This document shows, in pieces, positions 8,417 to 24,496 of a stretch of 33,019 nt of DNA. Made by a program: the position numbers and the translations under genes. The stretch comes from Arcicella sp. (GTDB lineage: Bacteria; Bacteroidota; Bacteroidia; Cytophagales; Spirosomataceae). The notes under the pieces were generated by a model. It worked only from the letters and a program-made list of their open reading frames with translations. It searched no databases and had not been told where the DNA came from. Numbering within the stretch: the first letter of the stretch is position 1; each line of letters opens with the position of its first letter. The stretch lies in assembly GCA_025454855.1 (NCBI GenBank), contig JALONS010000012.1, forward strand, positions 1-33,019, given 5' to 3'.

Positions 8417-9154
8417 ATGGAAAATAAAGTTGTTTTAGTTACAGGAGGTTCACGAGGTATCGGACGTTCAATTTGTGAAACACTTGCCGAAAGAGGCTGT
8501 ACCGTAATTTTCACTTACTTAAGTAACGAAGAAAAGGCACAAGCATTAGCTGCTGAAATTAGAGAAAAAGGACAAAAAGCATTCGCTTACTATTGTGATA
8601 TGAGTGATTTGAAGTCAGTAGTTGCCTTTTCAGCAAAAATTCGTAAAGAATATGGAAATTTTGACGCACTGGTGAATAATGCAGGAATTTTAGGCGATGG
8701 AAAACCTTTCTTAATGTCTGCCGATGACCATTGGTGGAATGTGATGAAAACAAATATCGGTAGTGTTACTAATACTTGTAGAGCGGTAGTTCCACAAATG
8801 ATTGCTCAGAAAAAAGGAAGAATAGTAAACATCACTTCGGTGTCAGGTCAGAAAGGTAATCCGGGGCAATCGGCTTACTCAGCTTCTAAATCTGCTATTG
8901 TTACTTTCTCGAAAGCATTAGCCAAAGAAGTAGGAAGATTTGGTGTGGTAGTAAACTGTGTATCTCCGGGACTCATCGAAACGGATATGACCAAAAATAT
9001 ATCAAACGAATACGTATCTGCACGCTCACAGTTTTCGGCACTTACTCGGAAAGGTGAGGTACAAGAAGTAGCCAGTTTAGTTTCTTATCTTATTTGTGAC
9101 GCTCCTGAATATATTGTCGCTCAGGAACTTACGATTGATGGAGGCTTAGTATAA
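8417..9154 (+). CDS. 3-oxoacyl-ACP reductase (FabG-like SDR)
   Basis: VLVTGGSRGIGRSI, NNAGILGD, YSASKSAIVTFSKALAKE. Confidence 0.93.
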   Translation: MENKVVLVTGGSRGIGRSICETLAERGCTVIFTYLSNEEKAQALAAEIREKGQKAFAYYCDMSDLKSVVAFSAKIRKEYGNFDALVNNAGILGDGKPFLMSADDHWWNVMKTNIGSVTNTCRAVVPQMIAQKKGRIVNITSVSGQKGNPGQSAYSASKSAIVTFSKALAKEVGRFGVVVNCVSPGLIETDMTKNISNEYVSARSQFSALTRKGEVQEVASLVSYLICDAPEYIVAQELTIDGGLV

Positions 9155-9205
9155 AGATTTCTATCATTATTTCAAAATCTAAATCAACTCTGAAAACTTA
9201 GCGTC

Positions 9206-10423
9206 ATGGAAAGAGTAGTAATCACGGGTATTGGCATTAGTTGCTCAACCGGAAAAAACAAAGAAGAATTTAAAGAAAGCCTATACAGTGGTAAAGTTGG
9301 ATTAAAACCAATAGCTGCTGAACGTTTTCCTACTGAATCTCCCGTTTACAAAAACAAAAGTGCTTGTGTTTTAGACCAAGAGTATTTTGAAGAATTGAAA
9401 GCGGTTGATAATACTATACTTACTGAAATATCCGTGAGGGTAGTTGAAGAGGCGATGATTGATGCTGCTATCAACTTAGATAAAATCAACCGTAGAAAGG
9501 TGGGCATTTGCATGGCAACCACCATTGGAGGGTCTTATCCTTTTATGGATTTTACAAAAAGACGAGTTGATGGCATATTCAAAAAAGAAGATTATGAATT
9601 GATTTTTAAGGCTTCTACTCCAAATATTACAGGAAGTGTTCTTCGTTATTTTGGACTAAATGGACCTACCTCTACTATTTCAACGGCTTGTGCTGCTGGT
9701 ACTAATTCTATTGGGCGAGCTTTTGATATGATTTCAAATGGACGTATAGATATGTGCGTTAGTGGTGGAGTAGATGTTTTTTCTGAATTGAGCTTTGCAG
9801 GTTTTAATTCTTTACAGTCTTTATCTCGTGGAATATGCCAACCTTTTGATAAGAAAAGAGATGGACTTACCCTTGGTGATGCCAGTGCCTTTGTTATCAT
9901 GGAAAGTTTGAGCCATGCTCAAAAGAGAGGAGCAAAGATTTACTGTGAAATAAAAGGGTATTCTGCCAATAACGAAGCGTACCATCCTACGTCTCCTAAT
10001 CCAGACGGAAGTACCGCTTGTTTAACGATGCAACAAGCTCTAAAGCAAGCAGATATGAATATTGCTGAAATTCAATATATTAATGCACACGGAACTGCAA
10101 CTGGTGCTAATGATGGGATGGAGATAAACGGAATTCGGAAGCTATTTGGTGAACAACCGGTATATCTTAGTTCTACCAAATCAATGACTGGGCATACCTT
10201 AGGTGCAGCAGGAAGTATTGAACTAATAGCTACCAGTTTAGGAATGCACCATGGGTTTGTACCACCATCTTGTAATATCACTACGCCATTGATTGAGGAA
10301 AACGATAATTTAAGAATTGTACAAAATAAAGCCCTTGATTACGAATACGAAGGAGCTTTGTCTAATTCTTTCGGATTTGCTGGCTGTATGGCATCAATGG
10401 CAATTAAACGTTTTGATAATTAA
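9206..10423 (+). CDS. Beta-ketoacyl-ACP synthase (FabF-like, catalytically complete)
   Basis: STACAAGTNSIG (active Cys), NAHGTATGANDGME and KSMTGHTLGAAGSIE (both His). Confidence 0.94.
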   Translation: MERVVITGIGISCSTGKNKEEFKESLYSGKVGLKPIAAERFPTESPVYKNKSACVLDQEYFEELKAVDNTILTEISVRVVEEAMIDAAINLDKINRRKVGICMATTIGGSYPFMDFTKRRVDGIFKKEDYELIFKASTPNITGSVLRYFGLNGPTSTISTACAAGTNSIGRAFDMISNGRIDMCVSGGVDVFSELSFAGFNSLQSLSRGICQPFDKKRDGLTLGDASAFVIMESLSHAQKRGAKIYCEIKGYSANNEAYHPTSPNPDGSTACLTMQQALKQADMNIAEIQYINAHGTATGANDGMEINGIRKLFGEQPVYLSSTKSMTGHTLGAAGSIELIATSLGMHHGFVPPSCNITTPLIEENDNLRIVQNKALDYEYEGALSNSFGFAGCMASMAIKRFDN

Positions 10424-23271: not shown

Positions 23272-23275
23272 TATC

Positions 23276-24496
23276 ATGGAAACTTCAAACGCTGTTGTCT
23301 CAAAGAATCCAGTTTATATGCAATCTCCTTATTTGGATATTACCATACTGGAATCCCTCGGGAAAAGCACCATACACAATATTGTTAATGGCAAAAGTTA
23401 TGATGTAAGCCCATTAGTAGCACAAATTCTACTGTTTTTCAGAAATCAAGAGAGTTTAGATAATTTATTATTACAATTCGGACTTGAAGAGGAAAATATT
23501 ACTAAAACCATTGACTTTCTGTTGGATAATAAATTGTTGGTACAGGTTTCTGAAGAAGGTTGGGAACAATTTACCATTGATGTTATTGCAGCTAAAAATA
23601 GATTATTTGGCGTAGGCGGTTATCATAAAAAAGCCCAAAATGTAATGGTGGGTATTCCATTTGGTAAGGGTAATGGTAAATCTGCAGGTGGCGGAGAATT
23701 CCCTTTCCAAATTAGAGAATATAGCCAAAAAGCAGGATATTATTTGGGGCGTTCAAATTTTCAATGTTTTGACGCTGAAACGGCTAAGAGATTGCAAAGT
23801 AAATTTTCAAAAAATGACTTAGTAGATTTCGGAAATTTATTTATAAGTACCAACGAGTCACCAGCGTTTATTTATGAGAAAATGTACAAAATTGCAGATA
23901 AGTTATGGGCAAATAAGCAGACACCAGCTTTTATTGGAGGAGACCATTCCATCAGTTTTCCATTGATAAAAGCGGCTGCCAATCACTATCCTAATTTGCA
24001 TATTATTCATTTTGATGCTCATACGGATACCTATACTTCTCGATACGATAATATCAATCATTGGGGCAAAACGCATCACTATGGGAACTTCATGACACAC
24101 GCTTTAGCATTGCCACAAGTTAAAAACGTGTATCAATTTGGTATTAGAGGAATGTCTAATATCAACGAAAAATCCTCTGAGAAACAACATATTTTTTGGA
24201 GACACGAAATAAGCGAAAAACTTTTTACACCCAAAACATTTGATTTACCCAAGAATGTACCCTACTACGTAACCTTTGATATAGATGTAATAGACCCAAC
24301 GGTTTGCCCCGGAACAGCAACCCCAATTCCAAATGGCTTTAATCTGAGGGAAATGAAAAAATTATTTGATAAAACCTTAGCAGGAAAACAAATCATAGGC
24401 TTTGATTTTGTAGAAGCCAACAATGATTTTGATAAGACAGACCTAACCAATCAGGTATTTTTAGAGGTTTTTCTGCAATTATTAAGTTATGTGTAA
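23276..24496 (+). CDS. Arginase/ureohydrolase-family enzyme with PqqD/RRE-like N-terminal domain (candidate peptide arginase)
   Basis: IGGDHSISFPLIKAA, IIHFDAHTDTYTSRYDN, YVTFDIDVIDPTVCPGTATPIPNGFNLREM; N-terminus KSYDVSPLVAQILLFFRNQESLDNLLLQFGLEEENITKTIDFLLDNKLLVQ is PqqD-like. Confidence 0.87.
   Translation: METSNAVVSKNPVYMQSPYLDITILESLGKSTIHNIVNGKSYDVSPLVAQILLFFRNQESLDNLLLQFGLEEENITKTIDFLLDNKLLVQVSEEGWEQFTIDVIAAKNRLFGVGGYHKKAQNVMVGIPFGKGNGKSAGGGEFPFQIREYSQKAGYYLGRSNFQCFDAETAKRLQSKFSKNDLVDFGNLFISTNESPAFIYEKMYKIADKLWANKQTPAFIGGDHSISFPLIKAAANHYPNLHIIHFDAHTDTYTSRYDNINHWGKTHHYGNFMTHALALPQVKNVYQFGIRGMSNINEKSSEKQHIFWRHEISEKLFTPKTFDLPKNVPYYVTFDIDVIDPTVCPGTATPIPNGFNLREMKKLFDKTLAGKQIIGFDFVEANNDFDKTDLTNQVFLEVFLQLLSYV

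Follow-up and report, generated by a model that had tools for sequence, protein, structure and literature searches.

What is made by a single co-oriented block of genes that joins a type II fatty acid/polyketide synthase (FAS/PKS) set to a run of very small peptides and an arginase-family protein? The block occupies positions 8417-24496 on the + strand of a 33,019-nucleotide stretch of Arcicella sp. (contig JALONS010000012.1, assembly GCA_025454855.1), referred to here as the window. An earlier inspection of the letters and open reading frames (ORFs), called here the sequence-only reading, had listed its genes from a beta-ketoacyl-acyl carrier protein (ACP) reductase (KR) to the arginase-family protein as a candidate ribosomal lipopeptide pathway. 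ORF calling and family scans confirmed all the listed genes, their coordinates and their strand, and the claimed cluster for ribosomally synthesized and post-translationally modified peptides (RiPPs), including a type II FAS/PKS set of its own, is supported. We consider the products to be small lipidated, ornithine-containing ribosomal peptides, with a probability of about 0.6. The RiPP family is real, rare and probably new, and lipidation of its peptides is likely.

Arginase and core arginine occur together

The seven small peptides (20528-21596) are indeed encoded in tandem, and all of them contain the motif AAL-D-[ST]-A-R-C and the leader IVELEERFE; they have no convincing match to an NCBIfam or Pfam model. 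We searched the M50 protein of the cluster against the order, a precursor profile against the family, class and order, and an M50 alignment against GTDB genomes; together these searches yielded 45 distinct loci with precursors, the window among them. An ELExRxE-type leader is also present in the other 44 loci, giving the combination of a small precursor, a conserved leader and a variable core that is expected of RiPPs. The precursor C-termini vary across loci. Spirosoma, Pseudarcicella and a related family contain the closest relatives. Chryseobacterium and Lewinella-group bacteria have fuller gene sets too, and more distant loci were found in Pedobacter, Hymenobacter, Neolewinella, Segatella, Bergeyella and, beyond the phylum, in Thalassotalea. 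Judged by its sequences, this is a rare RiPP family spanning Bacteroidota and a few gammaproteobacteria. Since the same gene set recurs in clusters of other genomes, its arrangement is not due to chance. The constant core consists of the precursor with the ELEERxE leader and the M50 protease, usually joined by an LpxL-like protein. The arginase, the ketosynthase/chain-length-factor (KS/CLF) set and a LanB-like protein are variably added, as are grasp-with-spasm enzymes in genome G263.

The arginase-family protein carries a domain of about 110 residues at its N-terminus, preceding the PF00491 ureohydrolase. The sequence-only reading had taken it for an OspR-type peptide arginase, an assignment we reject: PF12640, the OspR family, had no match, and PF00491 was the sole family at E ≤ 1. 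The metal motifs GGDHS, FDAHTD and FDIDVIDP are intact, and the metal ligands are invariant in 30 sequences. A Foldseek search with the AF2 model of the N-terminal domain (residues 13-104, pLDDT 79) retrieved TigE (E 3e-4), TbiB1, a heterocyclase, MccB, PbtF and PqqD, nearly all top matches being RiPP recognition elements (RREs), of which the first alone has an E-value below 0.001. Such RRE-fused arginases are rare: among 399 genomes sampled from the phylum, the window's own was the one positive at the E-value used. The same genome harbors a second locus (L041, G000:C393 9097-14051) with four precursors bearing two Arg-Cys motifs each, together with an M50 protease, an RRE-arginase and an LpxL-like gene, and with no KS/CLF on the contig.

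The co-occurrence of the RRE-arginase with Arg-Cys (or Lys-Cys) in the precursors was strict. All 127 precursors of the 29 arginase loci contain [R/K]C (121 Arg-Cys and six Lys-Cys), as opposed to none of the 25 precursors of the 16 loci without the RRE-arginase, where three loci with Arg-Cys and no nearby arginase (L110, L112 and L117) count as positive only after a genome-level search that did not extend to L115 and L126. The RRE-arginase genes of L110 and L112 lie just past the fetched flank, and that of L117 on another contig. Fisher's test at the locus level gives p = 1.5e-12, a value that ignores the kinship of the related loci. The core Arg always immediately precedes Cys. Lys substitutes for it solely in arginase loci, which fits a need for a side-chain amine.

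Arginase and Arg-Cys change together at each change on the tree. The most informative case is G322, a Spirosoma relative nested in an arginase-positive clade (set of six rows, SH-aLRT 99). No arginase match was found anywhere in its genome at E ≤ 1e-5, the TonB gene starts about 45 bp past the end of the M50 gene, and the cores read ADSAVCFD. By sequence, this lineage has lost both the arginase and the core Arg. We read the strict co-occurrence, including the event in G322, as good evidence that the arginase acts on the Arg of Arg-Cys. Conversion of this invariant Arg to ornithine (Orn) by the RRE-fused PF00491 enzyme, as claimed before, is thus well supported by the co-occurrence and by the RRE fold on the arginase.

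Candidate acyltransferase and acyl acceptor

The RRE-like domain is not confined to the arginase. The N-terminus of the M50 protease (profile comparison, E 3.5e-7) and the C-terminus of the LpxL-like protein (hhalign, E 2.6e-5) are both homologous to the arginase RRE; control segments gave no E-value below 0.06. Fold and profile homology thus indicate RRE-like, putatively leader-binding domains common to all three proteins. Daptide MpaP, an RRE-fused site-2 protease, cleaves off leaders that carry an ELExMEAP motif (PMC10036551), and RiPP M50 proteases have been covered elsewhere (PMC10885120); by analogy, the M50 protease likely removes the leader here. In one locus of genome G472 (L080, 13364-14404), a 346-residue protein without a Pfam or NCBIfam match is encoded between the precursors and the M50 protease.

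The LpxL-like protein has no Pfam match and a single weak NCBIfam match (E 6e-4). Its AF2 model (pLDDT 79) resembles LpxM (5kn7, Foldseek E 1.4e-8) and PatA, placing it in the LpxL/HTLPL fold, and H117 and D197 are invariant in 38 of 38 sequences. The RRE-like domain and the frequent company with precursors suggest that its substrate is a peptide, and we infer that it is likely a peptide acyltransferase. The proposed acyltransferase role is therefore plausible, given the fold, the RRE-like domain and the presence in most loci, with the reservation about its catalytic motif given below. As for the acyl chain, KS/CLF/ACP genes accompany precursors in several families, including Chryseobacterium, and in relatives of the KS/CLF type, too, the ACP gene immediately precedes the precursors. 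The KS retains its catalytic triad, and the CLF has Asn (N168) at the position of the KS active-site Cys, the pairing typical of type II PKS/FAS. The AMP ligase probably activates the starter acid.

We infer the chemistry and order of the steps, and the structure and site of the acyl chain, from the gene content, the RRE folds, the active sites and the arginase/Arg-Cys pattern. The leader of the seven precursors would be bound by the RRE-like domains of the arginase, the LpxL-like protein and the M50 protease. Hydrolysis by the RRE-fused PF00491 enzyme would turn the Arg of Arg-Cys into Orn, while KS/CLF/KR and the dehydratase (DH), with the AMP ligase, ACP and phosphopantetheinyl transferase (PPTase), would build an acyl chain that is dedicated to this pathway and probably unsaturated. 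This chain would be transferred from ACP to the peptide by the RRE-bearing LpxL/PatA-fold protein, and the RRE-fused intramembrane M50 protease would cut off the leader.

Several observations weigh against this pathway. The co-occurrence of arginase and Arg-Cys is clustered by descent, with three changes on well-supported branches and six on the best tree, and an independent-pairs test on the supported branches is not significant (p = 0.25). The acid of the HX4D/E motif is replaced by R, Q or another residue in 37 of 38 LpxL-like sequences, including the window (H117-x4-R), so catalysis by this protein is not assured. The LpxL-like gene was not seen in the stretches of L097, L098, L115 and L122, some of which are short contigs. 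Finally, no KS/CLF was found near the precursors, within the stretch read, in the arginase loci G000:C393, G472, L100, L101, L105, L106, L109, L111 and L119. A dedicated acyl supply is hence not universal, and members without nearby KS/CLF may use other acyl donors. G472, for example, has precursors, M50, arginase and LpxL-like protein. The FAS genes and the precursor/arginase genes, which the sequence-only reading had tied together, thus partly occur independently: G322 has FAS genes without the arginase, and G000:C393 and G472 have the arginase without KS/CLF. Such independence is in part the outcome that this reading itself had named as speaking against its model.

Which residue carries the acyl chain? 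Tentatively, the LpxL-like acyltransferase may place it on the Orn delta-amine, giving a selidamide-like lipopeptide through a different enzyme fold. The strict coupling of arginase and Arg-Cys points this way, as do the RRE-like domain, which would let the LpxL-like protein act on a leader-bearing peptide, and Lys-Cys as the sole substitute in arginase loci, selidamides being acylated on Orn or Lys (PMC9505594). However, the LpxL-like protein is retained without core Arg and RRE-arginase in G322, G263, G005 and others, and G322 keeps the KR/KS/DH/CLF/LpxL/AMP-ligase/ACP set. Orn can therefore not be the sole acceptor in the family, and acylation of Orn as a general rule, as claimed before, is not upheld. 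The acceptor differs among members: in arginase loci it may be Orn, and where there is no Arg, a Cys or Ser side chain or the N-terminus has to take this role. One arginase-less locus (L090, G263) combines ISCCLDG precursors with KS, DH, M50, an LpxL-like protein, and ATP-grasp and SPASM maturases of the grasp-with-spasm type.

It is possible, if rather doubtful, that the chain sits as a thioester on the nearly invariant Cys, or on a Ser/Thr hydroxyl; from a Cys next to Orn, an S-to-N shift to this Orn might stabilize the lipid, and the arginase would be an optional stabilizing step. Cys is present in all 127 cores of arginase loci and in 20 of the 25 others, Arg directly precedes it, and the LpxL family is normally O-acylating, but Cys is missing from L107, L118 and one L114 precursor, and we know of no precedent for an LpxL-type fold acting on peptide thiols. 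We doubt more that the new N-terminus exposed by M50 cleavage is acylated, with arginase and LanB merely decorating the core: lipolanthines and goadvionins carry their acyl chain there and an N-terminus is available in all members, including cores without Arg, Lys or Cys, but the RRE-like domain of the LpxL-like protein would be of little use after leader removal.

That the LpxL-like protein and the KS/CLF set serve the synthesis of some other lipid or of a polyene, with the peptides as unrelated neighbors, is improbable. APE/flexirubin-type clusters do carry KS, CLF, KR, DH, an LpxL-like acyltransferase, ligase, PPTase and ACP; here, however, precursors, M50 and arginase are accompanied by the LpxL-like gene even where no KS/CLF is nearby, the LpxL-like protein bears an RRE-like domain, and the ACP gene directly precedes the precursors. 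A lanthipeptide, in which the Ser/Thr in S/T-x-R-C is dehydrated by LanB and joined by Cys into an i,i+3 ring that encloses Orn, is just as unlikely and is rejected in its canonical form as the core pathway: Ser/Thr stands three residues before Cys in 30 of 32 precursors of the five LanB loci (the window, G238, G520, G521 and G537), but LanB is an accessory without the elimination domain (SpaB_C), no LanC gene was recognized in the cluster, and several of the many loci without LanB also have Ser/Thr at that position.

Gene content of the window

Table 1. Features of the block and its flanking co-conserved genes in the window.
Feature	Position	Strand	Evidence
TPR protein, directly upstream of KR	7623..8312	+	homologues next to KR in relatives; co-conserved
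Beta-ketoacyl-ACP reductase (KR, FabG-like SDR)	8417..9154	+	PF00106 218 bits; Y154/K158 invariant, 10 loci
Ketosynthase (KS, FabF-like)	9206..10423	+	PF00109/PF02801; C162-H295-H330; closest PDB chain 9s5h_B
3-Hydroxyacyl-ACP dehydratase (FabZ-like DH)	10442..10915	+	PF07977; H51/E65
Chain-length-factor-like KS partner (CLF)	10928..12166	+	PF00109; N168 invariant, 10 loci
LpxL/PatA-fold putative peptide acyltransferase, C-terminal RRE-like domain	12171..13370	+	H117-x4-R122, D197-G; fold model
Small ORF, GG-type leader motif (EVRGG)	13383..13595	+	translation, 70 aa; between LpxL-like and LanB genes
Small LanB-like protein (glutamylation/PEARL type), accessory	13648..16284	+	PF04738 63.9 bits only; PDB 6ec7 E 5e-5
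DUF2141 protein, co-conserved	16334..16753	+	PF09912; found in relatives
AMP-forming acid:ACP/CoA ligase	16878..18362	+	PF00501 163.9 bits
Sfp-type 4'-phosphopantetheinyl transferase (PPTase)	18340..18993	+	motifs GIDL, WSKKEA; family scores below cut-off
Type II thioesterase (TE)	18995..19714	+	PF00975; S79/H215
HTH regulator, co-conserved	19726..19980	+	PF01381; homologues in G238, G322, G337, G520, G521, G537
Acyl carrier protein (ACP)	20108..20395	+	DSL motif, S47 invariant in 10 loci; synteny
Precursor peptide 1 (...AALDTARCSETQAA)	20528..20644	+	translation
Precursor peptide 2 (...AALDTARCGDGANVEIK)	20677..20796	+	translation
Precursor peptide 3	20823..20945	+	
Precursor peptide 4	20972..21103	+	
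Precursor peptide 5	21143..21262	+	
Precursor peptide 6	21289..21426	+	
Precursor peptide 7	21465..21596	+	
M50 site-2-protease-like metalloprotease, N-terminal RRE-like domain	21997..23271	+	PF02163; HELGH, DGYW conserved
RRE-fused PF00491 ureohydrolase (putative peptide arginase)	23276..24496	+	PF00491 168 bits
TonB-dependent receptor-like outer-membrane protein, co-conserved	24607..26811	+	PF13715, PF07715; synteny
NADP-dependent MDR oxidoreductase	26825..27865	+	PF16884, PF00107; homologues in G238, G322, G520, G521, G537

The catalytic residues listed in Table 1 for KS, KR, DH, ACP and TE are intact and invariant across 10 homologous loci. The active sites of the PPTase, the arginase and the M50 protease are intact as well. 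The PPTase scores 21.6 bits against PF01648 (cut-off 25) and 54 bits against NF047349, also below cut-off. Co-conserved genes overlooked in the sequence-only reading are those for the HTH regulator, the DUF2141, TPR and TonB-dependent receptor proteins, and the NADP oxidoreductase, the last being co-conserved in five of the closest relatives. The small ORF next to the LanB gene had no detectable homologue in G238, G520, G521 or G537 and is not conserved. An Rfam search gave no match.

Outside the block, a radical SAM/SPASM maturase (FxsB/YhhB-like, below cut-offs) lies with small GG-type peptide ORFs at 5818-7434, and a peptidase-ABC transporter with an HlyD-like protein at 28936-32233 on the opposite side of the cluster. 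Their homologues are contiguous in Pseudarcicella hirudinis (G328), which suggests that they form a cyclophane-type RiPP cassette of their own. Between the genes for the ABC transporter and the HlyD-like protein, at 31284-31499, a 15-bp unit (CTATTCTCTATYAAY) is repeated in tandem about a dozen times.

Comparison with known systems

Few RiPPs are lipidated, and in the literature we consulted the acyl group is added by GNAT enzymes or through the lipoprotein pathway. Neither an RRE-fused arginase nor this gene combination turned up in our literature search; as most subscription papers lay outside the search, novelty is provisional. Whether the ELEERxE leader, the RRE-fused M50 protease, the RRE-bearing LpxL/PatA-fold acyltransferase, a second peptide-arginase lineage (PF00491 fused to an RRE, making Orn beside an invariant Cys) and the type II PKS lipid together define a new RiPP class is, in our view, an even bet. 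If the proposed pathway is true, the leader-guided LpxL/PatA-fold acyltransferase and the RRE-fused arginase would be two new types of peptide-modifying enzyme, and this would be, to our knowledge, the first RiPP lipidation by a lipid-A acyltransferase fold. The natural pattern of gain and loss makes the target residue of the arginase directly testable, including in the culturable Pseudarcicella hirudinis, Spirosoma terrae and Chryseobacterium species.

The LanB-like protein resembles small LanB proteins of the PEARL/TbtB type in having Lant_dehydr_N without the elimination domain; here, it is an accessory of five loci, and the precursors lack a conserved C-terminal scaffold end. The KS, CLF-like partner, DH, ligase, ACP and PPTase are shared with the APE/flexirubin and cispentacin type II PKS sets, whereas the present set is attached to a RiPP module and all Amc and FlxB models score below cut-off; a KS/CYF pair of the cispentacin type was accordingly rejected. 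Daptides (MpaP, NF041824) share the RRE fused N-terminally to a site-2 protease and an ELE-type leader motif. However, the M50 protease here scores 92.5 bits against NF041824 (cut-off 300), and neither the daptide C-terminal Thr nor amine-forming enzymes were recognized.

Among peptide arginases, PF12640 enzymes and KgrD of PF00491 have been described (PMC12703449). OspR, FlmR and OhkR (PF12640) carry out, within RiPP pathways, the conversion of peptidyl Arg into Orn that is proposed here, FlmR and OhkR also in Bacteroidota, but the arginase here belongs to another protein family and is fused to an RRE-like domain. Closer in family is the enteropeptin arginase KgrD, which acts on an Arg next to Cys (PMC12703449) but needs prior thiomorpholine formation. 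Such chemistry was rejected here: no radical SAM gene is common to the loci, and the one at 6301 is part of the separate cyclophane-like cassette.

Membership in the selidamides, as suggested by the sequence-only reading, is not supported. Selidamides (phaeornamide, kamptornamide; PMC9505594) rely on a PF12640 arginase and a GNAT, and no GNAT was recognized in the cluster. They draw their acyl supply from primary metabolism and use a peptidase-ABC transporter and a proteusin leader, whereas the present loci combine a PF00491 arginase bearing an RRE, an LpxL/PatA fold, an M50 protease and a non-proteusin leader with, in the window, dedicated KS/CLF genes. What the two systems would have in common, as deduced here from the genes, is a RiPP lipopeptide with arginase-made Orn and a fatty acyl chain on the peptide.

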